This document shows, piece by piece, positions 13,208 to 29,208 of a stretch of 64,000 bases of DNA. The notes under the pieces were generated by a model. It did not search any database. It worked only from the letters and a program-made list of their open reading frames with translations, and had not been told where the DNA came from. Position 1 is the first letter of the stretch; each line of letters starts with the position of its first letter. Source of the DNA: Chromatiaceae bacterium (lineage in GTDB: Bacteria > Pseudomonadota > Gammaproteobacteria > Chromatiales > Chromatiaceae); NCBI GenBank assembly GCA_022340805.1, contig JAJDNF010000072.1:1-64000 (forward strand), in the 5' to 3' direction. A program made the position numbers and the translations under genes.

Positions 13208-14008
13208 TCAGCACTCGGCCTTGATCAACAACCTGCCGGTATTGCGCTTGGGCTCGGGCTGCGCGTCTTCGCGAAGCGACTTTGCCGCCTCGCCGCCCAG
13301 ACCAAGGTCCAGCCCGAGGCCGAGCGGGTCCGCCGACTGCGGCGGCGGCGCGGACTCGCCGCCTGGTGCGACGTCCAGAACATCCGCGCTGCCAAGGCCG
13401 AGGCCCAGACCGAGGCCCAGCTCATCGGCGCCGGCCGATCCTGTCTCATCCGGTCGGGCCTGCGCCGCAGTGCCTTTTACCTGCAGTCCCGCATCGGCGA
13501 CGTAGTCACCGGCGAAGAAACAGGCCACCGCCTGGTATCTGGCCCGGGCAACGGGATCCATCTCGGCCACCCCGGCACTCTGCGGGTCGTTGAGATAGGC
13601 CTGCCAATAGTTGAACCCGCCGAGCAGCGCATAGGCATCGCGATCCACGAGACGCAGCAGCAGCGCCGCCTGTGCGGCATGCGCAGTGCCATTCGAATAG
13701 ATCACCAGCCTGCGGCCCTGCGGCAGGGTCGCCAGCGAGGCATCCGACAGCAGCGCGGATAGCGGGACATGGCGCGCATCGCGGATATGGCCCGCCGCAA
13801 AATCGGCGGCCTCGCGGATATCGATGAGTTCGTAGTCCCGCTGGTCCTTGATAATCCAGTCGGACAGCTCGGCGACCGTGACGTGATCCTGCTCCGCGGC
13901 GATGGTCTTGGCCAGCGCGGCCGCCTTCCCCGCAATGCCTACCTGCGGCGGCTCGGTGCAGCCGCTCAGCAGGCCGGCGAGCGACAGTGCCAACAACACC
14001 ATTTTCAT
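13208..14008 (-). CDS. Secreted rhodanese-fold protein, active-site Cys replaced, low-complexity LGLGLG tail
   Basis: Signal peptide/lipobox (LSGCTEPP), rhodanese motifs YELIDIREAADFAAGHI..HVPLS, active-site loop VIYSNGTAHAAQ (Ser for Cys), GL-rich C-terminus. Confidence 0.8.
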   Translation of the reverse strand: MKMVLLALSLAGLLSGCTEPPQVGIAGKAAALAKTIAAEQDHVTVAELSDWIIKDQRDYELIDIREAADFAAGHIRDARHVPLSALLSDASLATLPQGRRLVIYSNGTAHAAQAALLLRLVDRDAYALLGGFNYWQAYLNDPQSAGVAEMDPVARARYQAVACFFAGDYVADAGLQVKGTAAQARPDETGSAGADELGLGLGLGLGSADVLDVAPGGESAPPPQSADPLGLGLDLGLGGEAAKSLREDAQPEPKRNTGRLLIKAEC

Positions 14009-14021
14009 AGGCCTTTTCCCC

Positions 14022-15047
14022 TCACTGCATGAGCCGCTGCAACAACTGCGGATCGAACTGGAGCGCGTAATCCGTCCAGGTGCTTGCCTGGCCGATGTCC
14101 ACCATCAGATAACGCAACATGAAACCGCCGTACACAACCAGCACCCCGGCGACCAGGCCAAGACCCCGATAACCGCGCAGGCCGGCGAGCTCAAACACGA
14201 TCGGTACCAGCAGGCCCGGCAACACGAACCACAGCCAGAAGGGCGCGGTGTACGGTCCTCCGGTCACCAGCGCCAGCGCATCCATGTGTTGTGCAGCGCC
14301 GGTAGCGAGGTTGATCAGGAACAGCGCGATCAGCACCAGCTCAACAGCGATCAGCGCCATATCGGTGATCTCGAAAAAATGCCGCTCCTGCGGATGAGCA
14401 CCCGCCAGAATAGGCAGGACCGCCGCGGTAGACATTCCGGAGACCAGGAACAGCGGCCCGAGGATGCCGGAATTCCAGAACGGCCTGGCGCTGAACGCAC
14501 TCAGCAGCACACCCGTGTAGATACCCAGGCCAACGGCCAGCGGAATCACCAGCCACGCAATCAGCCGGCGCCGATGCTCGCACAGGCTGAGGATCACGGC
14601 GCCGCCGGGGATCCTTTCCACCAGCCCGGCCAGCGTCGGATAGCCGGTGCGCAGCGTGGACAGCGTCTGTACGAGCATCAGCGGATAGATCAGCACCAGC
14701 ACCCAGGCACCCCACGACATCGGTGAGCTGGGCTCGAAGCTGGTGTAGAAGCGGAACACATGCAGCTTGTACTCCAGGTCCAGGAACAGCGTCGTCATGC
14801 CCAGCGACAGCACGACCGGGGCCCACAGCGCAAACCGGTTATGCGCGAACGCCAGCGCATTCTCCCTGCGGCCCAGCACGGCCCAGGCCGCGAACAGCAT
14901 GATACCGGCCGCCATACCGCCCAGAAACAGATAGAAGGCGATCTCCCAGGTCCAGATGCCGAGCGACGGATCCACCTTCGGGTTGTAACGCGCGGTTACC
15001 AAGACTTCCTCGATCATGCCCGGTTCCTCACAGCAGGTAATAGACAT
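14022..15047 (-). CDS. NrfD/PsrC-type polytopic membrane subunit of a molybdoenzyme
   Basis: WEIAFYLFLGGMAAGIMLFAAW, multi-TM, adjacent to PsrB- and PsrA-like genes. Confidence 0.87.
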   Translation of the reverse strand: MSITCCEEPGMIEEVLVTARYNPKVDPSLGIWTWEIAFYLFLGGMAAGIMLFAAWAVLGRRENALAFAHNRFALWAPVVLSLGMTTLFLDLEYKLHVFRFYTSFEPSSPMSWGAWVLVLIYPLMLVQTLSTLRTGYPTLAGLVERIPGGAVILSLCEHRRRLIAWLVIPLAVGLGIYTGVLLSAFSARPFWNSGILGPLFLVSGMSTAAVLPILAGAHPQERHFFEITDMALIAVELVLIALFLINLATGAAQHMDALALVTGGPYTAPFWLWFVLPGLLVPIVFELAGLRGYRGLGLVAGVLVVYGGFMLRYLMVDIGQASTWTDYALQFDPQLLQRLMQ

Positions 15048-15570
15048 GCGGGTCGTTGCCGGTCTCCGGCATCAACGTCTTGTAGCGGCGCTCGCGCAAC
15101 AGCCGGCTGACGATGCTGTCGCGATCGTCGAGGATGCCGAAATGCATGCAGCGCGTCGGACAGGTCGAGACACAGGCCGGATCAAGGCCCCGGTCGACGC
15201 GGTGATGACAGAAGGTGCACTTATCCACGTAGCCTTCCGGGTGCATGATCAGCCGTGCGTCATACGGACAGGCGGCGATACAGGCCTTGCAGCCGGTACA
15301 CTTTTCCGCGGCCACCAGCACGATGTTGGTGTCCTTCCAGTAATGGCTCGCCCCGGTCGGACAGTTGGTCACGCAGGTGGCATGCCCGCAGTGGTTACAG
15401 CGCTCGGAGCGGAACTCGGTCTCAAGATTCGGGTACTCGCCGCGGGTGGCCTCCACCACCCAGTCGCGGTTCAGCCCGGCCGGCACCTTGTTCTCGTTCT
15501 TGCAGGCCACCACGCAATCGCCACAGCCGATGCAGGTGCGGGTGTCGATGACCATCGCATAGGTCGTCAT
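15028..15570 (-). CDS. 4Fe-4S ferredoxin-type electron transfer subunit (PsrB-like)
   Basis: CIGCGDCVVACKNEN, CNHCGHATCVTNCPTGA, CTGCKACIAACPYDAR, CTFCHHR: four clusters. Confidence 0.92.
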   Translation of the reverse strand: MTTYAMVIDTRTCIGCGDCVVACKNENKVPAGLNRDWVVEATRGEYPNLETEFRSERCNHCGHATCVTNCPTGASHYWKDTNIVLVAAEKCTGCKACIAACPYDARLIMHPEGYVDKCTFCHHRVDRGLDPACVSTCPTRCMHFGILDDRDSIVSRLLRERRYKTLMPETGNDPHVYYLL

Positions 15571-15571
15571 G

Positions 15572-17761
15572 TCAGCTCACCTCGCCGGCCTTTACCAAAG
15601 TGACGAAACTCGCACGCATGCCGGTACCGCCCATGACCGGATCCAGCTTCACGTTGTGCATCAGGCCCGCATCGTCCGCCCCGACGCCGCGCGCCAGCCG
15701 CTGGCGCTGATCGGTGTGGCCGAAGCCATGCACCATGAACACCGAATCCGGCCGGATGCGCTGGGTCACGCGTACGCGCACCCGGTTGCTGCGCGTGCCC
15801 TCGGGATTCTGCAGCCGGACATAGTCGCCGTTGCCGACACCCAGACCGGCCGCTGCGGCCGGATGCACCCAGACGGCGTTCTCCGGCATCAGCTCGAACA
15901 GTTGCGGATTATTGATCGTGCGGCCAAAGGTATGCGCCGGCGCGCGCCCGTAGTTCAGATGGTAGTACCCCTCGGGCGGGCGATCCGGCGGCGTATAGCG
16001 GGGCAACGGGTCCTGGCCGATGTCCGCCAGCAGACTGGAATAGAGTTCGATCTTGCCGCTGGGGGTCTTGAACCTGAGCGGGTTGTCAGCATCGAGGTAG
16101 ACGGCGCCCTTGCGGGGAAAACGCTTGACCCCGAGCGTCTGCATCTCGGCGAGCGAAGAGCCGACCTGCTTGAGCTGCCAGTCGAGCACCTCCTGGTAAT
16201 CCTGCCAGGGGAAATACTCACCCAGGCCCAGTCGCTCCGCGATACCCTTGGCAATCCACCAGGCCGGCCTGGTTTCATGTGCGGGCTCGAAGGCCGGCAT
16301 GCGCAACGCAAGCGTGGGCGTGCGCTCCGGCTTGTTGCGCAGGTCGTCGTAGCGTTCGAGGTAGGTGCATTCGGGCAGCACGACGTCGGCATAGCCGGTG
16401 ATCTCCGCCGGCATGGTGTCGACCACGACCATCAGCTCGAGCGACTGCGCCGCGGCCTCGATCTGCTCGACACCACCCGGCAGTGTCATCGGCAGGTTGG
16501 TGGCGTACACGAACCAGCCCTTGAAAAAGGCATCCTTGCCTACCGAGTGCTCGACCAGCTTGTTGCTGATGCCGGTACTGACCAGCGGGTATTCCGCCTG
16601 CACGACGGCCTTCCAGTCGCTGGCCGGCTTGGGCGGCTTGGGTGCAGGGTACTCCGGCAGGTCCACCTTCTCCTGGTTATAGAAGCCGCCCGGACGGCCC
16701 CATGAACCGAGCAGCGCGTTGAGGATCGCGATCGCCCGGCAGCGCTGGGTGTCGTCACCGTACCAGGTCACGTGACGACCGGGATGGACCAGCGTGGCCG
16801 GCGCCGCGCGTGCCATTGCGCGCGCGGTCTCGCGGATGCTGGATGGCTCGAGGCCGGTCTCCAGGTACGCCCACTCCGGGTTGAACGCCTGCACGTGGCG
16901 GGCCAGTTGCCCGAACCCGGTGCAGTGCCGGGCCACGTACTCGCGGTCGTACAGATCTTCGTTGATCAGCACGTTCATCCACGCCAGCAGCAGGGCCATG
17001 TCGGTGCCCGGCTTGATCGCCAGCCAGTGCGCCGACTTCGAGGCCGCCACCGAGAAGCGCGGGTCCACGGTGATCAGCGTGGCGCCGCTGTCCAGGGCCT
17101 TGGCCAGGGTCTGCACCTGGCTGTTGTGCAGATTCTCGCCGATGTGCGATCCGATCAGTACGATGCACCTCGAATGGGCCATGTCGGTGCGGTCCGGCGA
17201 GCCGACGCCCTCGCCGAAGGTCAGGCCGAAGGCCGTCTCGCGTGGGCCACGGCACTGCGCAAAGGAGGGATGGGCATAGGCATCCGAACCGAAGGCCTGC
17301 AGCATGCGGCGCAAATGCTCGCCGCCGTCGCCGTGCGAAAACAGCGCCATGCGGTCGCTGCCGTGCTGCTCGCCGATGGCCTTCATCCGGCGCGCGATAA
17401 AGTCGAAGGCCTCGTCCCAGGACACCGGCCTGAAGCGCTGACCGCCGCCCTCATCCACCCTGAGCAGTGGCTGACGCAGACGGTCGGGATCGACATAGGC
17501 GCCGATGCCGGCGCTGCCACGGGTACACAGACGACCCTCGCAATGCGGGTCGTCGGGATGGCCCACCACCTTCCACGGTCTGCCGTCCTCCTGGTACAGC
17601 GTACCGGCACACTGCCAAAAGCACAGGTTGCAGACTGTAGGGCTGCCGGTCACCACGCCGCTGCCCGGTAGCGGCCTGGCTGCGCAGCCGCCCAGCAGCG
17701 TCGGCATTGCACCGGCCGCACCGAGCGCGGCGGAGATCTTGAGGAACTCGCGTCGATTCAT
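15572..17761 (-). CDS. Tat-exported molybdopterin oxidoreductase, PsrA/PhsA-like
   Basis: MNRREFLKISAALGAAGA Tat signal, CNLCFWQCAG..CTRGSAG 4Fe-4S motif, FAQCRGPRETAF (candidate Cys Mo ligand), C-terminal molybdopterin dinucleotide-binding domain. Confidence 0.88.
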   Translation of the reverse strand: MNRREFLKISAALGAAGAMPTLLGGCAARPLPGSGVVTGSPTVCNLCFWQCAGTLYQEDGRPWKVVGHPDDPHCEGRLCTRGSAGIGAYVDPDRLRQPLLRVDEGGGQRFRPVSWDEAFDFIARRMKAIGEQHGSDRMALFSHGDGGEHLRRMLQAFGSDAYAHPSFAQCRGPRETAFGLTFGEGVGSPDRTDMAHSRCIVLIGSHIGENLHNSQVQTLAKALDSGATLITVDPRFSVAASKSAHWLAIKPGTDMALLLAWMNVLINEDLYDREYVARHCTGFGQLARHVQAFNPEWAYLETGLEPSSIRETARAMARAAPATLVHPGRHVTWYGDDTQRCRAIAILNALLGSWGRPGGFYNQEKVDLPEYPAPKPPKPASDWKAVVQAEYPLVSTGISNKLVEHSVGKDAFFKGWFVYATNLPMTLPGGVEQIEAAAQSLELMVVVDTMPAEITGYADVVLPECTYLERYDDLRNKPERTPTLALRMPAFEPAHETRPAWWIAKGIAERLGLGEYFPWQDYQEVLDWQLKQVGSSLAEMQTLGVKRFPRKGAVYLDADNPLRFKTPSGKIELYSSLLADIGQDPLPRYTPPDRPPEGYYHLNYGRAPAHTFGRTINNPQLFELMPENAVWVHPAAAAGLGVGNGDYVRLQNPEGTRSNRVRVRVTQRIRPDSVFMVHGFGHTDQRQRLARGVGADDAGLMHNVKLDPVMGGTGMRASFVTLVKAGEVS

Positions 17762-17776
17762 CGCTGCCGCGATCCT

Positions 17777-19066
17777 TCAGAGCTTGTAGTTGCCGTCTTT
17801 GCCAATGCTGACGGTTTCGTTCAGATAGCGGTTCTTTATACCCATCCCGTTCAACGTCTGATGCGCCATCTCCGCACGAATCCCGTTGGCGCAATAGACG
17901 AGGATCTCTTGATCCCTGGGCAACTCGGCCGCGGCGTCCTCGAGCTTTTCCAGCGGGACATGACGTGCCCCGGCGATCTTGCCCGCGGCCACCTCCTGGT
18001 CGCTGCGCACGTCGATGACGAGTACCGCATCACCAGCCTGCTGCAACGCCATGAACTCCTCAGGCGCGATGGCGCCCGGGGCGAGCTTTTTCTCGAACAC
18101 GATCTGCGCGGCCGCGGGCCCACTTTCGGTCGGCAGCCCCGCGGTCTGCCAGGCGGCAAAGCCGTCTTTCAGCACGGTGGTATTGGCATAGCCCCAGCTG
18201 CGCAGTTCCTTGTATGCGAGCAGCGCGTCCTTCGAGGTATGGCTATCCGCATAGACGATCACCGGCGCACGCAGATCCGAGACGCCTGGCAGCTGGGCGA
18301 CCGTCTGCTGATCGATGAAACGCCGGGTCATGGCCTGCAGCTCGGTGGTCGGCATGGCCACGGCGCCCTGGATATGCGCGCGGTCGCTGTCCGCCTTGCC
18401 GCGCACGTCGAGGATCACGTGCTGCGGATCCAGGTTTTTGGCCAGCCACGACGCCTCGGCATGCACCGGCAGCTTGGCCTTCTTCCAACCCGGCAGGCCG
18501 GCCTGGAATCCCTTGAGATGGGTATAACCGGCCTCCTGCGCCTTCTTGACCGCCACCCCGGTGAACGGACAGGTGGGACCACCGCAGTAGAATACCAGCA
18601 GGACGTTCTTGTCCTGCGGCAGCTTGGCGAGAAAGTCCTGGTCCTTCGGGAACGCCGACTGTGCGCCGGGAATGTGCCCTTCTCCGAAGCGCTTCGCAGG
18701 GCGCGCGTCGTACAGCTGGTAGGGTTCGGCCCCGGTCATGACCGCCAGCAGCTCCCTGACATCGATCTCGACGCCCGGCGGCAGACCGAACACGATCTTC
18801 TTGATGCTGCCGGCCGGCTGGCCAGGCTCGCGTTGCACCTCGATCAGATCGGGCGGACCGAGATCCTCGAGGCCCGAGGCACCGTCATAGCGGGTGCCGG
18901 CATTGGTGCGCACCACCACCTTGCTCACCGCACCACCCTCGCCACCGACCTCGATCTGAATCGTGCCCGCCTGCTGCGAAACGGCGGCGATGCGCCCTTT
19001 GAGCGTTTCCGCCTGCGCCACACCAACCAGCGCGACCAGTGAAACCAAGAAAACCAGCCTTTTCAT
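17777..19066 (-). CDS. Secreted protein with three rhodanese domains
   Basis: Signal peptide MKRLVFLVSLVALVGVAQA; loops VFYCGGPTCPFT, VIVYADSHTSKD (no Cys), LVYCANGIRAEM. Confidence 0.87.
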   Translation of the reverse strand: MKRLVFLVSLVALVGVAQAETLKGRIAAVSQQAGTIQIEVGGEGGAVSKVVVRTNAGTRYDGASGLEDLGPPDLIEVQREPGQPAGSIKKIVFGLPPGVEIDVRELLAVMTGAEPYQLYDARPAKRFGEGHIPGAQSAFPKDQDFLAKLPQDKNVLLVFYCGGPTCPFTGVAVKKAQEAGYTHLKGFQAGLPGWKKAKLPVHAEASWLAKNLDPQHVILDVRGKADSDRAHIQGAVAMPTTELQAMTRRFIDQQTVAQLPGVSDLRAPVIVYADSHTSKDALLAYKELRSWGYANTTVLKDGFAAWQTAGLPTESGPAAAQIVFEKKLAPGAIAPEEFMALQQAGDAVLVIDVRSDQEVAAGKIAGARHVPLEKLEDAAAELPRDQEILVYCANGIRAEMAHQTLNGMGIKNRYLNETVSIGKDGNYKL

Positions 19067-19140
19067 TTCCGTCTCCAAAATTTTGCTGCCCACGCGCAGC
19101 TGATCCAACTAACCGGTCAGACAAACCTCGCCCGGTACAG

Positions 19141-19273: not shown

Positions 19274-20521
19274 TCAGGCATCATCGTGCGTCACTTCCCG
19301 ATGCGCCTTCTCGCGCAGGAAGCTGCATTGTACCGGCAGCGCGGCCTTGGCCAGCAGCGTGAACAGTAGCAGGCCGATTGCCCAGATCCCCAACGAGACC
19401 ATGATCTCTGTCGCACTGGGCGCGTACTCGTAGATCTCGCCGATCGGCGTCGGCACGAATGCCGGGATGACCAGACCCATGCCCTTCTCTATCCATACGC
19501 CCACCACGGTCAACACGAAGGCGATGTTCATATACACCGGATGGGTGCGCAGCGGGTGGATCATCAGGATCAGCAGCGCGACCGCCAGCAGCAGCACGGC
19601 CGTCCATATCCAGGGTGTCAGCGCGGTATGCCCGTCGAGTCCGAAGAACAGGTAGCGCGCCGAGGCGGCATGCTCGCCCTCGTTGTAGAAGTCGGTAAAC
19701 AGCTCGGCCAGCACGAAGAACAGTGTGACCTGCAGTGCAATCGCGGCGACCAGCGCCAGATGGTCGATCACGCTCTGCCGAATCGGGTAGTCGCTGACCC
19801 GGCGGATGATCTGCAGACCGATCGCCATCAGTGCCGGCCCCGAGGCAAATGCCGAGGCGATGAATCGGGGCGCGAGCAAGGCATTGTGCCAATACGGGCG
19901 TGCCGAGTTCGCGGAGTACAGGAAGGCCGTGACGGTATGGATCGAGATCGCCCAGAAGATCGCCAGCAGCACCCAGGGGAAGTAGCGCGACGCATTCGGT
20001 TCCTTGCCCTGGTAATGGTTGTACACGATATAGAACGAGATCCCGAAGTTGAGCAGCAGATAACCGTTCAGCACGATCACGTCCCAGGCCAGCATGGATT
20101 CGGGGAAGTTGAAGCGGCCGATGAATGGAATCAGGTGCCAGAAGCGGTCGGGGCGCCCGAGATCCACGACCACGAACAGTATCGCCATGGCCACGGCCCC
20201 GATCGCCATGGTGTCACCCATCAGGACCACGTCTTTGATGTCCTTGCGATTAAAGATGTAGGCCGGCACGACCAGCATCACCGCGGCCGCGGCCACGCCG
20301 ACCAGAAAGGTGAAATTAGAGATATAGAATCCCCAGGAGACCTGGTTGCTCATGTTGGTGACCAACAGGCCGTCGCGCAGCTGCAGGTAGTAGTGCCATC
20401 CACCCAGCACGATCAGCACCAGCAGCAGCGCAAGCCAGGCCCAATACAGCAGACCACCGCGGAACATGTGCCCGAGGCCATTCAACACGAACCCAAACAG
20501 ACCCGACCTGCTGTCACTCAT
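19274..20521 (-). CDS. NrfD-family polytopic membrane protein (second copy)
   Basis: ~10 hydrophobic segments, NQVSWGFYISNFTFLVGVAAAAVML, overlaps the ferredoxin gene by 8 nt. Confidence 0.87.
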   Translation of the reverse strand: MSDSRSGLFGFVLNGLGHMFRGGLLYWAWLALLLVLIVLGGWHYYLQLRDGLLVTNMSNQVSWGFYISNFTFLVGVAAAAVMLVVPAYIFNRKDIKDVVLMGDTMAIGAVAMAILFVVVDLGRPDRFWHLIPFIGRFNFPESMLAWDVIVLNGYLLLNFGISFYIVYNHYQGKEPNASRYFPWVLLAIFWAISIHTVTAFLYSANSARPYWHNALLAPRFIASAFASGPALMAIGLQIIRRVSDYPIRQSVIDHLALVAAIALQVTLFFVLAELFTDFYNEGEHAASARYLFFGLDGHTALTPWIWTAVLLLAVALLILMIHPLRTHPVYMNIAFVLTVVGVWIEKGMGLVIPAFVPTPIGEIYEYAPSATEIMVSLGIWAIGLLLFTLLAKAALPVQCSFLREKAHREVTHDDA

Positions 20522-21449
20522 CGCGGAAGTACCAGAATTTCGGCTCAGTACCCAGGTCTTCCTTCAGGCGAAACACCGCCTTGTGCTCCAGCACATAGCG
20601 GATCTCGCTGTCCGGGTCGAGCAGGTTGCCGAAGATCCTGGCCCCGGTCGGGCAGGCCTCCTGGCACGCGGGCTGCCGCCCCTTGCGGGTGCGCTGCACG
20701 CAGAAGTGGCACTTTTCCACCACGCCGCGCGGACGTGGACGGTTGCCCAGGTAGTGGGTGTCCGGATTCAGCCCGGCGCTCGTCAGGTCCGGGTGGCCCC
20801 AGTTGAAATGCCGCGCCTGGTAGGGACAGGCCGTCATGCAGTAGCGGCAACCGATGCACCAGTCGTAGTCGACGACCACGATGCCGTCCGGCTCAGTCCA
20901 GGTGGCCTCGACCGGACAGGCCTTCACGCACGGCGGGTTGTCGCACTGCATGCACTGCATTGGCAGGTAGTATTTGCCCTCGACCGGGACCTGCTCGTGA
21001 TCGTAGTAGTGGTCGCCGTGGCGCAGATCGGTGCTGTCGCGGTCCATCTCGATGACCCGGATGTACTGGGTGTCGCTGCTCAGGTTGTTTTCCCGTGCGC
21101 AGGCATGCACGCAGTCACGGTAACCGCGACACTTCGACACGTTGATCGCATAACCGAATATCACACCCTCCTGCGCCGGCGTGTTGTCGACGCGGATATC
21201 CACGCCGTAGCGGCGTTTCGCCTTGCGTTCGATGCGCTCGATGGTCGCGCGTATCTCGGCCTCGGTCATGCGCTGGTAGTGCTGCTGGAAGAAATCGGCA
21301 AACGCATCCGACAAGGTACTGCCACCCCATGCCCCGCCGTTCACCGCCAGTGCGCCAGCCCCGGTGGCCAACGCCACGCCCTGCAGAAAGCGGCGCCGCG
21401 CCATGTCGCCGATCGCCGGGTCGTCGTTCTGATCGTCAGGATTTTTCAT
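20514..21449 (-). CDS. Tat-exported four-cluster ferredoxin subunit
   Basis: Tat signal MARRRFLQGVALATGAGALAV; CRGYRDCVHACARE, CMQCDNPPCVKACPVEA, CIGCRYCMTACPYQAR, CHFCVQRTRKGRQPACQEACPTGA; start re-placed at 21449. Confidence 0.88.
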   Translation of the reverse strand: MKNPDDQNDDPAIGDMARRRFLQGVALATGAGALAVNGGAWGGSTLSDAFADFFQQHYQRMTEAEIRATIERIERKAKRRYGVDIRVDNTPAQEGVIFGYAINVSKCRGYRDCVHACARENNLSSDTQYIRVIEMDRDSTDLRHGDHYYDHEQVPVEGKYYLPMQCMQCDNPPCVKACPVEATWTEPDGIVVVDYDWCIGCRYCMTACPYQARHFNWGHPDLTSAGLNPDTHYLGNRPRPRGVVEKCHFCVQRTRKGRQPACQEACPTGARIFGNLLDPDSEIRYVLEHKAVFRLKEDLGTEPKFWYFRDE

Positions 21450-22293
21450 CCGCCGCCTGCTCCGCTGGGTTGGTCTGCGGGTCGCCCGTATGCTGCCCAG
21501 AGCCTGCCGCCTGCGTCTCCCGATGGGCGCGCTGCCATACCGATTCATAACCGTGAACCTTGGGCCTTTCGGTATCGTGCGCGACCCAGTGCGCAGGCCG
21601 CTCCAGGCCCATGCGCACCGGCGGCCCCGGCTGCGGCGCGCGGGCCTTGATGCCCGGCCGGTGCTGGTAATGACAGGCGGTGCAGTTGAATACCTGGCGC
21701 CTGCCCTGCCAGTTGGCCGCGCGCTTGCCGTGTGCGCCATATGCCCAGTCGCGCGCCTGATCCACATGACATTGGCTGCACAGCAGGTAGGCATCGCCGA
21801 ATTCCAGCTTCTCACCGGTCAGCGTCTTCAACCCACCTGAGCCGCTCAGGTCATGGCAGGTAAAACACCAGAACTTGCCCTTGCCGTGCAGGCCGTGCTG
21901 CAGCTCGAAGTTGTCGTGCGGCTTCTTGAGGTGGCGCGGCCGCGGATCGCTCAGTACCCATTGATGACAACTGGAGCAGGGGTGCATGCCGGGATCGCGC
22001 TGACTGGGGATGACCTCGAACGGCGGCACGCCCGAGAACACGGCGTAGGCCCGGCGTGCGGGTGCATCGAAGTCGGGCATTGCGGTCTCCCCTACCCGCG
22101 GCACGACGGCCGCAACGGGCGCCTTGGAGATCCCCGCGCGCTTGGTAACCGGCGTATCGTCCAGGCCGGTGAAACCACTCCAGTCCCAGTCGGCGGTGGG
22201 CGGCGCACCCTGCTGCTCGACCGCCCTGGCCACCCCACACGGGGCGACGGCCAGGACGGTCAGCAGTGCGAGCAGTCGTGACGGCCAGGTCAA
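21436..22293 (-). CDS. Tetraheme c-type cytochrome
   Basis: Signal peptide and four CXXCH: CSSCH, CFTCH, CSQCH, CTACH. Confidence 0.87.
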   Translation of the reverse strand: MTWPSRLLALLTVLAVAPCGVARAVEQQGAPPTADWDWSGFTGLDDTPVTKRAGISKAPVAAVVPRVGETAMPDFDAPARRAYAVFSGVPPFEVIPSQRDPGMHPCSSCHQWVLSDPRPRHLKKPHDNFELQHGLHGKGKFWCFTCHDLSGSGGLKTLTGEKLEFGDAYLLCSQCHVDQARDWAYGAHGKRAANWQGRRQVFNCTACHYQHRPGIKARAPQPGPPVRMGLERPAHWVAHDTERPKVHGYESVWQRAHRETQAAGSGQHTGDPQTNPAEQAADEKS

Positions 22294-22338: not shown

Positions 22339-23601
22339 TCACAGCCTGACCTCGGCCGAGGCCACCAGTCGTGGCGTCAGCAGTTCATCCGGCAGCTTGC
22401 CCTTCATGTTCGCCTTGATCGGCGGCAGCAACAGGTCGTACAGCGCCTCGGCCCTGACGATGCTTGTGCCCGGCTGGAGCGGGATGTCGTACTCGAGGGT
22501 GCGCACCTCGTTGGGCTTCAGACGCGTATCCGACAGCACCTGGGTTGCCTTGGGCGGCGAGGTCGGTTTGCCCGCCTCGTCACCCAGGGTGTACCAGAAG
22601 GCCGCCTTCGGGTCGTCCTTGATCGGGTGCACCTGGTAGTTCTTCCACAGCATCTGGCCATCCTTGTCGTAGGTCGCGACGCGGATGAAGAAGTTGCGGA
22701 ACGGCGCACCGGTCGGATAGGCATGCGGCAGGCGATTGCGCACGGTCAAGGTGACCTTCATCGTGTCGCCTTCGCGCTTGGTGTCCATGCTCATCGCGAT
22801 GCCGCGCGTGATCATCTTGGCGTCATGGCCGCCGGCCATGCGGTGATCAGGGATGCTGACTGTTTCCCCGGGGACGATCTGACCGTCCTTGAGCTTGGGT
22901 ACCGTCACGATCGACATATGACAGGCCTGGCAGCTGACGAAATTCTTGCCAGTGCGGTACTCGTTGCCGGTGCGGCACAGCGGCGTGCCATGCGGGTTGC
23001 TGCGCTTTTCGTGGCAGCCCATGCAGGCGTCGTTGCTCTTGAACAGTTCCGACTTGTTGCCCTGCATCGGCACCGGGTGATGCACCGGCGTCGGCCATTT
23101 CGCATCTTCCGGGGTCCGCTCGGTCGTGTAGCTGATGCCCGAGGGGCCATACAGGCTCGCGGTATCCATCTCGTAGGCGTCGGTGCCATACAGCGGCTTG
23201 CCGTCTGCGCTGTCGGTTCCCTTGAACGCACTGAACGAATGGCAGGTCGTGCAGCCGACGCCCTGCGCATAGGCCTGCTTGGCGTCGAGCTTGGTCTTGC
23301 CCTCCATCGCCGCGACCGGGGCATGGCACTTCAGGCACACCGGATATTTCCCGTTGCCCGCCTTGACACCCTCCTGGGTCGGATCACCCACCACGTTCTT
23401 GTAGAAGGCACCGTGGATCGGATCCCTTACTGCGGAGCTGTTGGCGTGCATCGATCCGGACCACTGCACATAGATCTCCTCGTGGCACTTCATACAAGAT
23501 GTCGGATCGACATGCTGGACCGGCTCTGCGGCACCCGCCGTGGAGAGGTAACAAAATGTGGCCGAGCAAATGCCCGCCATCCAACGAAAGACTGGCGACA
23601 T
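22339..23601 (-). CDS. Pentaheme c-type cytochrome, cytochrome c-554-like N-terminus
   Basis: Signal peptide; CMKCHEEIYVQWSGSMHANS, CLKCH, CTTCH, CMGCH, CQACH. Confidence 0.87.
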   Translation of the reverse strand: MSPVFRWMAGICSATFCYLSTAGAAEPVQHVDPTSCMKCHEEIYVQWSGSMHANSSAVRDPIHGAFYKNVVGDPTQEGVKAGNGKYPVCLKCHAPVAAMEGKTKLDAKQAYAQGVGCTTCHSFSAFKGTDSADGKPLYGTDAYEMDTASLYGPSGISYTTERTPEDAKWPTPVHHPVPMQGNKSELFKSNDACMGCHEKRSNPHGTPLCRTGNEYRTGKNFVSCQACHMSIVTVPKLKDGQIVPGETVSIPDHRMAGGHDAKMITRGIAMSMDTKREGDTMKVTLTVRNRLPHAYPTGAPFRNFFIRVATYDKDGQMLWKNYQVHPIKDDPKAAFWYTLGDEAGKPTSPPKATQVLSDTRLKPNEVRTLEYDIPLQPGTSIVRAEALYDLLLPPIKANMKGKLPDELLTPRLVASAEVRL

Positions 23602-23967: not shown

Positions 23968-26874
23968 TTGGTTATGTGGTTGTATTCATGTTTTATTGGT
24001 CTAACGGTGCTGTTATCAGCGGCGGTTTCCGCGACCGAATTGCAGGACCCCTGGCAGCATGTCCCCAAACGGGGCCCACATACCGACCACAGCACCTTCT
24101 ACAGGGGGTCGTTCAAGGATGGCCCTTCCGTGACCCGCGCCTGCCTCGAATGCCACCCAAAGGCCGCCAAGGACATCATGCAGACCGCGCACTGGACCCT
24201 GCTCAGTGACGAGGTGCAGGTCCCCGGGCATGAACAGCCGGTGCGCATCGGCAAGCGCAATCTGATCAATAACTTCTGCATCGGCATCAAGTCCAACTGG
24301 CCAGGCTGCACCAGCTGCCACATCGGCTTCGGCTGGAAAGACGACACCTTCGACCTCAACGATGAAAGCCTGGTCGACTGCCTGGTCTGCCATGATCGCA
24401 GCGGCACGTACCACAAGGATGCCGGGGATGCTGGGCTGCCGGCAGCGGATGTCGATCTGCTCGCGGTGGCCAAGAGCGTCGGTCTCCCGACACGCGGCAA
24501 TTGCGGCGCCTGCCACTTCACAGCGGGCGGCGGCAACGCAGTGAAGCACGGCGACCTCGACGAGAGCCTGCTGTTCCCGAGTCCCGAGATCGACGTGCAT
24601 ATGGGCAGGCTCGGGTTTCAGTGCATCGACTGTCATCAGGCCGAAGACCACCTGCCCCCCGGGCGCCTGCTCACGGTAAGTGTGGACGACAAGAACCGCC
24701 TGGAATGCACGCAGTGCCACCAGGGCGGCGCGATTCACAAGGACCGTCGCATCGATGGCCATACCGATCGCGTAGCCTGCCAGACCTGCCACATCCCGCT
24801 GATGTCGGTGAAGGAAGGCACCAAGATGAGCTGGGACTGGTCGCAGGCCGGCCAGGATCTGCCGATCACCAACGAACACCTGTATCTGAAGATCAAGGGC
24901 CGTTTTACCTGGGTGAAGGGCGCCCAGCCGGAATACGCCTGGTACAACGGCACCGGCAGGCGTTACCTCCTCGGTGACAAGATCGACCCCGAAAAGGTCA
25001 CCGAGATCGCCGCGCCGCAGGGCGACCGCAATGACGAGAAGGCGAAGATCTTCCCGTTCAAGATCCACCGCGGCAGGCAGGCCTACGATACGCAATACCG
25101 GCATTTCATCCTGCCGCATGTGTTTGGCGAAAAGGGCTTCTGGACGCAATTCGACTGGGACGATGCGTTGCGCATCGGCTCCGAGGTCAGCGGTCTGCCA
25201 TTCAGCGGCAAATACGACTTTGCGCCGACCGAGATGTACCTGCCGCAGAACCACATGGTGGTGGCCAAGGAAAAGGCGTTGCAGTGCCCTGACTGCCATG
25301 GTGAGGGGGGACGCATGAACTGGACCGCGCTGGGCTATGCCGGCGACCCGGTCGTTCGCAGCACGCTCGCGCATGAGCCCATTCCACTGCTCGACGCAGA
25401 CGGCGAACTGGTTTACGACTCGGGCGGCCCGCTGTCCACGGCGATGACCTGCAGCCAGTGCCACGAAATCGAGGACGACGCGTTTGTTGCCACCCACGCC
25501 TACCACTCGACGGTCAAGGCCGCGGAGCTGACCGCGGAACGGCGCGTACTGATGCAGCAGGGCCCGCGGCTGCCTGACGACGAAGATCAGCAGATGAACT
25601 GCTTTCTGTGCCACCTCGCCAGGCCGAATATCGCCGAATGGCAGGACGCGATCAGCACAGGCAAGCCGGAATGGGCGGTGTCTGCGACCCTGATCGGCAG
25701 CGGGATGCTGCAGCGTTCACCGGAGGGATATGCGTGGAATCCCGATATCGTCGAAGACGACATGGTGCAGGTGTCCATGGCCTACCCAGGGCCATCACAA
25801 TGCGGCAATTGCCATGGCCTGGTACATACGGACAAGACACCACTGGTGATGGAACTCGGCTCGGACAAGAACTGGGGCACCGAGACGACCGGCCAGATCT
25901 TTTCCGCGCAGCCGATGCGTGTGTCGGGACTCAATTTCAGCGACAAAGACCAGCTCGGCCGCGCCTGGGACCTGCACGCGCAGCGCCTGGTCGAGTGCCG
26001 CGATTGTCATTACGCCAAGACACCGCCGGCCCACCTGCTCGGCGGCGATGCCGAGGCGCCCCAGACCTCTGCGGTTGAGGGACTGCGCAGCTGTAACAGC
26101 TGCCACACCGGGATGCAGGGGCACGACTGGCTCCCCGAACAACAGAAGCATTTTGCCGCAGTGGCCTGCGAATCCTGCCATGTGCCGCAGATCCATCTGC
26201 CGGCTCGCAAACAGGTCGACGCCAGTGTCGTTACGCCGACCGGAGACTATGTGCTGCGCTATCGGGGCCTCGAGCAGGGTCAGGCAGACGACCTGGCGCA
26301 TGCCTACTCCACTGGCTACCGGCCCCTGCTGCTGAAGAGGCCCGGTGCGGATGGCGCAGCGCGGTTTGCGCCAATGAATCTGGTCAGCCGCTGGTACTGG
26401 CTCGATGCCGACAGCCAAACAGAGGTCGACAAGGAACTGCTCAAGCGTGTCTGGCTGGTCGATGGGGACTATCGTCCGCAAATCATCGCAGCCTTTGACA
26501 GCAACCAGGACCGCACCCTGGACGAGTCCGAGTTGCGCCTGGACAGCGAGTCGAAGGTCGAGCTGATCCGCGCCCTGCTGATCGAACAGGGCGTGAGCGA
26601 GCCGGTGCTGCAGGCCGAGATCCGCGCGTTCCATCTGCATCACAGCGTAGCCCTCGACGAGGCGACCCGTGATTGCCAGCGGTGTCACAACGACAGCAAG
26701 GACGTCGTTTTCGATCTGGCCGACTATCTGCCTGGCGGCGTCCTGCCGAGTGTCTTTAACGGGGTTTCCGAATCGTTGAAGAGCCAGTGGCGGCTGTCCG
26801 CTGACGGCAGCCTGAAACTGGTGCAGCCGAGACCGCTTGCCAAGACCCCGGTGAAAACGAAGGAGAAGCCCTGA
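23968..26874 (+). CDS. Pentadecaheme c-type cytochrome: OTR-like octaheme domain fused to a 7-heme domain with EF-hand-like loop
   Basis: 15 CXXCH motifs; GKRNLINNFCIGIKSNWPGCTSCHIGFGWKDDTFDLNDESLVDCLVCHDRSGTYHK resembles the octaheme tetrathionate reductase family; DSNQDRTLDESE EF-hand-like loop. Confidence 0.87.
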   Translation: MVMWLYSCFIGLTVLLSAAVSATELQDPWQHVPKRGPHTDHSTFYRGSFKDGPSVTRACLECHPKAAKDIMQTAHWTLLSDEVQVPGHEQPVRIGKRNLINNFCIGIKSNWPGCTSCHIGFGWKDDTFDLNDESLVDCLVCHDRSGTYHKDAGDAGLPAADVDLLAVAKSVGLPTRGNCGACHFTAGGGNAVKHGDLDESLLFPSPEIDVHMGRLGFQCIDCHQAEDHLPPGRLLTVSVDDKNRLECTQCHQGGAIHKDRRIDGHTDRVACQTCHIPLMSVKEGTKMSWDWSQAGQDLPITNEHLYLKIKGRFTWVKGAQPEYAWYNGTGRRYLLGDKIDPEKVTEIAAPQGDRNDEKAKIFPFKIHRGRQAYDTQYRHFILPHVFGEKGFWTQFDWDDALRIGSEVSGLPFSGKYDFAPTEMYLPQNHMVVAKEKALQCPDCHGEGGRMNWTALGYAGDPVVRSTLAHEPIPLLDADGELVYDSGGPLSTAMTCSQCHEIEDDAFVATHAYHSTVKAAELTAERRVLMQQGPRLPDDEDQQMNCFLCHLARPNIAEWQDAISTGKPEWAVSATLIGSGMLQRSPEGYAWNPDIVEDDMVQVSMAYPGPSQCGNCHGLVHTDKTPLVMELGSDKNWGTETTGQIFSAQPMRVSGLNFSDKDQLGRAWDLHAQRLVECRDCHYAKTPPAHLLGGDAEAPQTSAVEGLRSCNSCHTGMQGHDWLPEQQKHFAAVACESCHVPQIHLPARKQVDASVVTPTGDYVLRYRGLEQGQADDLAHAYSTGYRPLLLKRPGADGAARFAPMNLVSRWYWLDADSQTEVDKELLKRVWLVDGDYRPQIIAAFDSNQDRTLDESELRLDSESKVELIRALLIEQGVSEPVLQAEIRAFHLHHSVALDEATRDCQRCHNDSKDVVFDLADYLPGGVLPSVFNGVSESLKSQWRLSADGSLKLVQPRPLAKTPVKTKEKP

Positions 26875-26876
26875 CC

Positions 26877-27416
26877 ATGTCGCCACGACGCCCGTCGGAA
26901 CGCTACTGGAATCCGTACCTTGCCGGAACGCTGTTGGGCATTCTGCTGTTCCTGACATTCTTCTTGACCGGTCATGGACTGGGATCTTCCGGTGGCATCG
27001 ATCGTATCGTGGTCGCGCTGGAGGATCTGGTGGTGCCACGCCACGTGGACACCACGCCCTACCTGGCCGCAATGGCCGGCGGCGAACGCAACCCGCTGGA
27101 TCACTGGGTCGTATGGCAGGTGGTGGGCATCCTGGCTGGGGGATTCGTGTCCGGCTGGCTGCACGGCAGGGTGCGCGTTGAAACGCGCCACGGCCCACGC
27201 ATCACCGCGCGGACACGCTGGGGCATGGCCTTCTTTGGCGGCATCCTGATGGGCTATGGCGCACGCATGGCGCGCGGCTGCACGTCGGGGCAGGCGCTCA
27301 GTGGCGGGGCGGTCCTGTCGGTGGGCAGCTACGCCTTCTGGCTGGCGGTATTCGTCGGGGGCTTTCTGCTCGCCCGGTTCGTGAGACGCCTGTGGCAGCC
27401 GGGAGGGTCCGCGTGA
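26877..27416 (+). CDS. YeeE/YedE-family membrane protein (sulfur transport-like), first half
   Basis: GILMGYGARMARGCTSGQALSGGAVLSVGSYAFW signature, multi-TM. Confidence 0.82.
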   Translation: MSPRRPSERYWNPYLAGTLLGILLFLTFFLTGHGLGSSGGIDRIVVALEDLVVPRHVDTTPYLAAMAGGERNPLDHWVVWQVVGILAGGFVSGWLHGRVRVETRHGPRITARTRWGMAFFGGILMGYGARMARGCTSGQALSGGAVLSVGSYAFWLAVFVGGFLLARFVRRLWQPGGSA

Positions 27417-28012
27417 TGGGCCCCTTGGAACTCACTGCAATGGTCGGCGAGGTCGGCGCCTGGATCGTCTATCTGCTGATCGGCTTCGCGTTCGGCTTCA
27501 TCCTCGAGTCCGCGGGATTCGGTGATTCGCGGCGCCTCGCCGCGCAGTTCTACTGGCGCGACCTGTCGGTCATGCAGGTGATGTTCACCGGGATCATGGT
27601 GGCGATGGTGCTGATCTTCTGGGCGACCGCGCTGGGCTGGCTCGATTACGAGGAGGTCTGGGTCAACCCGACCTATGTCTGGCCGGGCATTGTCGGTGGG
27701 CTGATCATGGGCGCAGGCTTCATCTTCGGTGGCTTCTGCCCCGGAACCTCGCTGGTCGGCGCCGCGACCCTGAAACTGGATGCGATCTGGTTCGTGGCCG
27801 GGGCCGCTGTGGGCATCCATGGCTTCGGCGAGACGGTCGCGTTGTTCAACGATTTCTGGCATTCGAGCTTTCTCGGGCGGCTGACGCTGCAGGACTGGCT
27901 GGGACTGCCGACCGGTGTCGTGGTCCTCGGGCTGGTGAGTATCGGGATCGTGGTGCTGTGGGCTGCAGAGCTTCTGCGCCGACGCCTGTATGGTGACGCC
28001 GATGAAGGCTAG
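27416..28012 (+). CDS. YeeE/YedE-family membrane protein, second half
   Basis: LIMGAGFIFGGFCPGTSLVGAATLKLDA; ATG overlaps the stop codon of the upstream gene. Confidence 0.82.
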   Translation: MGPLELTAMVGEVGAWIVYLLIGFAFGFILESAGFGDSRRLAAQFYWRDLSVMQVMFTGIMVAMVLIFWATALGWLDYEEVWVNPTYVWPGIVGGLIMGAGFIFGGFCPGTSLVGAATLKLDAIWFVAGAAVGIHGFGETVALFNDFWHSSFLGRLTLQDWLGLPTGVVVLGLVSIGIVVLWAAELLRRRLYGDADEG

Positions 28013-28643
28013 CCGTCTGCACGCCCTGGGCGCCGCGGTGCTGCTGCTGGCAGCGGCCGCGCTGGCCTGGCACGGGCAGCCCACACCGAGCGAAAAATGG
28101 CGATTTCTAGCCGCGCAGCTCGAACCCAGGCTGACCGAACGACAGGTCTATATCGATCCGGCCGAACTGATGGGCCTGATGCATGATGACTATGTCGACC
28201 TGTTCATCATCGACCTGCGCGACGAGCGCGACTGGAACCTGTTCCACCTGTGGGGCGCCGAGCGCATCCCGCCGCAGGCGCTGTCCGCTCACTGGAAGCG
28301 CTTTGCGAACCTGGGCGAAAACGGCGTGATCGTTTTTGTCGGCAACGATGAGGCCATTGCGACCGATGCATGGAAACAGGCCATGGCCGCCGCATCCAGA
28401 CCCAACGCCTATATCCTCGCCGGCGGCATCAATCGCTGGCTGCGCGAATTCTCGCCGGACAGCGACGCCAATGCGCCGCCTGCCGCTGGCGTCCCCGACG
28501 AGAACCTGCGCTTCCCGTTGAAATGGGCCCTCGGTGCGCGCCATCCTGCCTCGCTGCCCGACCCGCATCAGACGGGGACGCACAGTTTCACCAGGAAAGT
28601 GAGGCTGCAGAAGCGCGTCGTGAAAAAAGGCGGTTGCGGCTGA
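28002..28643 (+). CDS. Secreted rhodanese-fold protein lacking the active-site Cys
   Basis: LFIIDLRDERDWNLFHLWGAERIPP..VIVFVGNDEAIATDAW..AYILAGGINRWL; C-terminal KKGGCG. Confidence 0.78.
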   Translation: MKASRLHALGAAVLLLAAAALAWHGQPTPSEKWRFLAAQLEPRLTERQVYIDPAELMGLMHDDYVDLFIIDLRDERDWNLFHLWGAERIPPQALSAHWKRFANLGENGVIVFVGNDEAIATDAWKQAMAAASRPNAYILAGGINRWLREFSPDSDANAPPAAGVPDENLRFPLKWALGARHPASLPDPHQTGTHSFTRKVRLQKRVVKKGGCG

Positions 28644-28695: not shown

Positions 28696-28821
28696 GCAGA
28701 GCCGGCTATCACTTTTCCTTGGCCGTGTTCTCGTGTAGAAATGATCGCTATGGAACGATACTCAGATCACCGGGACGGTGTTGAGGTCGGATTCTCTGGC
28801 TGTTCAAAATGGAGAAAGACG

Positions 28822-29208
28822 ATGCCTGGTTTCAAATCGATGCTAATCAGCCTGATGCTGCTACCGCTGCTGGTCAATGCGGCGGACACGGTTCCAGCCG
28901 ACAAGGCGGTAATTCAATTTCAGACGAAGACGGGTGTCATCACCTTCAACCACGAATTGCACGCCACGCTGCGCACCAGTCAATGCGAGAGCTGCCATCA
29001 CACCCACGAGGCCGGCAAGCCCTTCCAGAAGTGTGAAGATTGTCATAAAGCCAAAGATACACCGGTGGCAGGCCTCTCAGTGGTCGCACCCAAGAGCTCA
29101 AAGGCCTATCACGTGAAGTGCAAGGGTTGTCACGAATACACGCTCAAAGAGCTGGACAAGCCGGCCGGACCAACGAAATGCAAGCTCTGCCATATCAAGG
29201 CTGAATGA
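28822..29208 (+). CDS. Small tetraheme cytochrome c (class III c3/c7-like)
   Basis: Signal peptide MPGFKSMLISLMLLPLLVNA; CESCHHTH, CEDCH, CKGCH, CKLCH. Confidence 0.88.
   Translation: MPGFKSMLISLMLLPLLVNAADTVPADKAVIQFQTKTGVITFNHELHATLRTSQCESCHHTHEAGKPFQKCEDCHKAKDTPVAGLSVVAPKSSKAYHVKCKGCHEYTLKELDKPAGPTKCKLCHIKAE

Follow-up and report, generated by a model that had tools for sequence, protein, structure and literature searches.

A fifteen-heme cytochrome that appears to join an octaheme tetrathionate reductase to a seven-heme relative without the catalytic heme

The window analysed in this study, that is, the whole stretch of 64,000 nucleotides, carries on its forward strand an uninterrupted open reading frame of 968 codons (23968-26874, no internal stop) with exactly 15 CXXCH heme motifs. 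Eight of these lie in the N-terminal half, at residues 59, 114, 138, 179, 219, 247, 271 and 440, and the others in the C-terminal half, at residues 495, 545, 612, 677, 709, 734 and 903, so that the motif count and the open frame bear out the single 968-residue, 15-heme protein of the original prediction. With a GC3 of 0.81 over the N half and 0.79 over the C half, the two appear to be coding in a single frame. The gene, which we describe as a fused cytochrome consisting of an octaheme tetrathionate reductase (OTR) module and a seven-heme OTR-like module, starts at TTG 23968 or at the in-frame ATG two codons further, at 23974. By inspection of the sequence, a signal peptide is predicted at residues 3-22 (23974..24033, forward strand). 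The segment LLSAAVSA/TEL makes it plausible, as had been claimed, despite the minor oddity that the basic n-region is missing, with no Lys or Arg in it. The product is plausibly a secreted protein. In the L045 orthologue, a lipobox-like TIAAC replaces the signal peptide found in the window protein.

The N module with hemes 1-8 (24040..25359, forward strand) is recognized by TIGR04315, by PF11783 and by a phmmer comparison with 1SP3, the S. oneidensis protein SO4144. Residues 39-457 match the whole TIGR04315 profile of tetrathionate reductase family octaheme cytochromes (positions 1-440) at 568.6 bits, well above the curated cut-off of 375 bits. The PF11783 match reaches 200 bits and leaves the C half unmatched, while the 1SP3 match extends over 423 residues at E=3.7e-145. 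All eight CXXCH hemes of the module keep the OTR spacing, and the earlier reading of these hemes as OTR stands on both the TIGR04315 score and the 1SP3 alignment. The motif of heme 2, the catalytic heme in OTR, is CTSCH at 24307..24321 on the forward strand, placed by alignment to 1SP3, and has no counterpart in the C module. Lys193, within GGGNAVKHGD (24544..24546, forward strand), aligns to chain position K153 of 1SP3, the lysine that ligates the active-site heme 2 on its distal side. Like H194 and the CTSCH motif of heme 2, K193 is invariant in the 20 OTR sequences collected, and it is the predicted equivalent of K153. An alternative candidate, K150, was dropped, as this position is Arg in some OTRs whereas K193 is invariant. 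The N module is, by every sequence test run, a bona fide and complete OTR.

The C module with hemes 9-15 (25360..26871, forward strand) had been thought to lie outside the OTR architecture, a view that our profile and profile-profile comparisons do not sustain. The C half alone gives 34.9 bits against TIGR04315 (positions 178-254) and 28.3 bits against TIGR04314, the model of MmcA, far under the respective cut-offs of 375 and 250. However, when an alignment of 20 OTRs was compared with one of eight C modules, the two profiles aligned end to end over 391 columns with E=4.5e-15 and a score of 119.6, which is above all 40 shuffle controls, in which the non-heme columns were shuffled and the CXXCH columns kept (mean 65, maximum 94.7). 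The alignment pairs heme 9 with OTR heme 1 and hemes 10, 11, 12, 13, 14 and 15 with hemes 3, 4, 5, 6, 7 and 8, respectively. The gap of 169 residues between hemes 7 and 8 recurs exactly between hemes 14 and 15, and the spacing of hemes 12-13-14 is 32 and 25 residues versus 28 and 24 for hemes 5-6-7. A second comparison was made with a family of cytochromes of 946-997 residues (L069-L075) with an eight-heme OTR-like core and scored 199 against the C modules (control maximum 63.8). Heme 2 faces a gap in both alignments. A first, shallow comparison had paired heme 10 with OTR heme 2, and this was replaced by heme 3 in the deeper ones. The latter pairing is preferred because heme 2 is still present in the intermediate eight-heme family, whose heme 3 motif NDCLMCH resembles MNCFLCH of heme 10.

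Members of the intermediate family come from several genera, some of them in the window's family, bear a long C-terminal extension and in some cases have C-x4-CH as heme 1; their matches to the NCBIfam models are weak, the best being TIGR04315 at 28-44 bits.

When all CXXCH columns were masked in shallow alignments of 5 and 6 sequences, the profile-profile signal was gone. For this reason, the claim of homology between the two halves rests on the deeper alignments with CXXCH-preserving shuffles, and once the CXXCH columns are set aside this homology is weak. A C-module profile search of the PDB returned nothing but a chance-level NrfA match (E 0.43). AlphaFold2 models, of the C module from 6 sequences and of the full-length protein, had mean pLDDT values of 42.5 and 32.7, both under usable confidence. 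As judged from the deeper alignments, the C module is a diverged module of the OTR superfamily that has lost exactly the catalytic heme 2 and kept the seven non-catalytic hemes, and we hold this anatomy and homology of the fused protein, as predicted from its sequence, with high confidence.

Between hemes 14 and 15 lies an EF-hand-type loop, DSNQDRTLDESE, at residues 844-855 (26497..26532, forward strand), just where a canonical-looking loop had been pointed out. A D-x-[DN]-x-[DGNS] loop with Glu at position 12 is kept in seven of the eight C modules compared, namely six fused ones and the split L061 (DIDRDGVVGAAE), and is absent from that of L062. The Pfam-type model PF00036 matches two members weakly (E 0.004-0.009, under its cut-off). 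The loop likely binds calcium, and Ca2+ held before heme 15 would probably rigidify the C module.

Downstream of the fused gene and on the same strand are two half sulfur transporters, a YedE type at 26877..27416 and a YeeE type at 27392..28012 (both PF04143), followed by an exported rhodanese (27990..28643, PF00581), which is conserved beside fused and split forms of the gene, and by a tetraheme c3-type cytochrome (28822..29208, also delimited as 28741-29208; PF02085). This cytochrome has a 69% identical counterpart in L042 and is a candidate electron carrier for the cluster. The rhodaneses of the window and of L061 both end in GGCG, and in the genomes with the split form a further gene fusion of the cluster joins the YeeE half and rhodanese (L061 11998-13296, L062 6352-7617). 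Upstream, all on the reverse strand, are a divergently transcribed pentaheme c554-like cytochrome (22339..23601), 44% identical to proteins beside OTR in L088 and L089, a tetraheme cytochrome (21436..22293), a DsrO-like 4Fe-4S subunit (20514..21815; 195.9 bits, cut-off 200) and the NrfD-type quinone-interacting membrane subunit DsrP (19274..20521; 398.1 bits, cut-off 350). Since the DsrO-like match begins near residue 210, the true start of this gene is probably further downstream. Pentaheme relatives in the window's family adjoin stand-alone OTRs. Stand-alone OTRs of the same genus (L003/L067 and L090) adjoin a 10-heme cytochrome, a pairing that is independent of the fusion. Further along the reverse strand, 13208-17761 and 17777-19108 encode a PhsA-like molybdopterin enzyme (466.6 bits, under the cut-off) with Fe-S and NrfD-type subunits, a rhodanese and a three-domain rhodanese, which form a second sulfur redox complex near the fused gene.

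The cluster varies among the fused loci. In L042 it carries on with a DmsE-type decaheme cytochrome (283.9 bits, cut-off 192.2) and an MtrB/PioB barrel (449 bits, cut-off 240), in L046 both are upstream of the fused gene, and L044 and L043 have the MtrB barrel and the decaheme beside it, respectively. No such pair is present next to the fused gene within the window, where the c3-type tetraheme comes directly after the rhodanese, while in L042 the decaheme and MtrB lie in between. This pair may have disappeared from the cluster in the window lineage. An MtrCAB-type cluster is found on another contig of the window genome. On contig 71 (L065, 7240-15621), an MtrB barrel, a DmsE-type decaheme and two 10-heme putative lipoproteins adjoin one another, and the one lipoprotein tested matches OmcA/MtrC, which marks L065 as an extracellular electron transfer cluster. 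Contig 84 (L066, 3229-3867) holds an MtrB/PioB-like fragment covering profile positions 458-662, with no adjacent decaheme, possibly a gene remnant. The host genome also carries DsrA and SoxB, and in view of these it most likely belongs to a sulfur oxidiser.

The reading frame might in principle have been produced by an assembly or sequencing error that joined two genes, and the occurrence of the split arrangement in other genomes could be taken in favour of such an artefact. A same-genus genome, however, has a 964-residue, 15-heme orthologue that is 63% identical and is followed by the identical gene order, and a genome scan added the complete 15-heme orthologues L044, L045 and L046 as well as two truncated genes, L043 and L029. 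(L002 and L042 are evidently one and the same contig.) There are thus four further complete gammaproteobacterial MAG genes besides the window gene, or five complete 15-heme fused genes in independent assemblies, and GC3 is uniform across the junction. Because complete orthologues exist in other MAGs, the fusion is not an assembly join; an artefact is already refuted by them, and we give it virtually no weight. That the fusion is real and rare, both of which had been implied, agrees with the genome samples and the papers searched. C-module relatives above the E 1e-15 level were found in 3 of 210 sampled whole genomes of the order, strong matches in a sample of the phylum were confined to the window genome and two split-form genomes, and in the open-licence literature neither the OTR-heptaheme fusion nor the split pair was found to be described. 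The fusion is therefore a rare but real one, in uncultured sulfur bacteria.

In two other gammaproteobacterial families the two halves are encoded by adjacent genes. In L062 and L061 the gene after the OTR gene encodes the seven-heme module on its own and continues into a b-type cytochrome (PF01292, cytochrome b561), the best NCBIfam relative of which is the thiosulfate reductase cytochrome b subunit (149.5 bits, cut-off 204), and the YedE, YeeE and rhodanese genes come after it, as in the window. The L061-type split pair occurs in two more genomes. A phylogeny of fused versus stand-alone forms, which had also been suggested, gathers every fused N module into a single clade (98/96) that groups with the split OTRs (98/97), and the C-module tree has a matching shape with weaker support (85/78). 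The fused clade with its split relatives suggests that, as far as the data go, two neighbouring genes were joined once, and the trees are consistent with a conserved fusion of single origin.

Taken together, we consider it fairly probable that the fused protein is an OTR-type sulfur-oxyanion reductase joined to its own electron-delivery cytochrome. Of the two parts of this proposal, the C module quite probably acts as a built-in wire, a role that had been anticipated and that draws support, by analogy, from the MmcA precedent and from the stand-alone version tied to cytochrome b. For reductive sulfur-oxyanion chemistry at the N module, we see the chances as evenly balanced. In the proposed mechanism, electrons would enter the seven-heme module and travel along the OTR hemes as far as heme 2. 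They would come from the quinol pool via cytochrome b where the genes are split, and from periplasmic c3/NrfD-type partners or a DmsE-MtrB conduit where they are fused. The sulfur oxyanion that heme 2 would then reduce to thiosulfate is most likely tetrathionate or a related polythionate, and the thiosulfate would be imported by the YeeE/YedE pair and handled by rhodanese. Only as a tentative suggestion, the fused protein may sit on the outer surface, where electrons from DmsE-MtrB would flow to the seven-heme module and polythionates or solid-phase sulfur would be reduced outside the cell; if true, this would parallel extracellular DMSO respiration, but with hemes as the only cofactors.

The substrate and the direction of electron flow are where other explanations have to be weighed. 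In vitro reduction of tetrathionate and of nitrite has been reported for a Beggiatoaceae relative of OTR (PMC6449678), and the in vivo function of OTR has been called cryptic even for the type protein (PMC11024163). Tetrathionate cannot be separated from nitrite or hydroxylamine on the basis of sequence, and since OTRs reduce both nitrogen compounds in vitro (PMC11024163, PMC6449678), one of them could be the true substrate. The genomic surroundings speak against a nitrogen-oxide enzyme, as the neighbours common to fused and split loci are the sulfur genes YedE/YeeE and rhodanese, the window has PhsA-like and DsrOP-like genes, and no nitrogen gene was seen beside the loci examined; we regard this explanation as very doubtful. 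A DsrAB/SoxB host could equally drive the system oxidatively, in which case the OTR module would draw electrons from thiosulfate or some other reduced sulfur compound by oxidising it, and the C module would export them to c-type carriers or an MtrAB conduit. SoxB and DsrA do constitute a sulfur-oxidiser set, the decaheme and MtrB barrel in the fused loci L042 and L046 and the MtrCAB genes elsewhere in the window genome could accept such electrons, and YeeE-like transporters serve sulfur oxidation too (PMC11582611). Nevertheless, the biochemically tested OTRs reduce tetrathionate and nitrite (PMC11024163, PMC6449678), and the link of the split form to a thiosulfate-reductase-like cytochrome b is typical of quinol-driven reductases, so oxidative use seems unlikely to us.

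Catalysis itself could also be questioned, for the whole fused protein might be a non-enzymatic surface or periplasmic electron conduit like MmcA of Methanosarcina, a seven-heme OTR relative without heme 2 and its Lys that acts in vivo as an electron conduit (PMC11024163). The association with DmsE/MtrB in several loci and the lipobox-like N terminus of the L045 protein would suit this explanation. The heme 2 site, however, is strictly kept together with its Lys in the N module and lost from the C module, which argues that catalysis is under selection, and a purely conducting role for the whole protein is quite unlikely. We retain the reductase with a built-in electron-delivery module as our working proposal. 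Its interest lies in the pairing on one chain of an enzyme module with a relative lacking only the catalytic heme, a natural experiment in which the contribution of heme 2 and the role of the other seven hemes are directly comparable, and it also provides the OTR family, which is poorly understood, with a concrete sulfur-transport gene context.

The relation of the fused protein to known systems can be summarized as follows. With OTR proper, as represented by SO4144, 1SP3 and TIGR04315, it shares, in its N module, the full profile and the whole set of eight hemes together with the Lys of heme 2, but OTR proper stops after heme 8, whereas the window enzyme adds the seven-heme module with an EF-hand loop. 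The likeness to MmcA, which was compared only through the TIGR04314 profile and the published description, is that the C module, too, has seven hemes arranged as in OTR and is missing both heme 2 and its Lys, the published hallmark of MmcA. MmcA differs in being archaeal and in an Rnf context, while the C module is bacterial, OTR-fused, furnished with the EF-hand loop and surrounded by sulfur genes. Against the two models, the split C module of L061 scores higher as MmcA than as OTR (44.3 versus 30.4 bits), and the fused C modules lean the opposite way, as the window scores given above illustrate. The heme 2 losses in MmcA and in the C module may represent one event or two; the C module brings an MmcA-type loss of the catalytic heme into the bacteria. 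The DmsEF(AB) and MtrAB conduits resemble the fused loci L042 and L046 in having a decaheme and an MtrB/PioB barrel, here beside the fused gene. They differ in that a multiheme OTR fusion would here take the terminal place of molybdenum DmsA or MtrC, and in that the adjacent pair is missing in the window. The split OTR and 7-heme/cytochrome b561 pairs (L061, L062 and L091) have both modules in the same order and the same YedE/YeeE/rhodanese cluster, and depart from the fused form in using two genes and in that the seven-heme protein bears a membrane cytochrome b. This stand-alone protein is the best clue to the role of the seven hemes, which would be in quinol chemistry, and the split form thereby names a quinol-type cytochrome b as the likely electron source.
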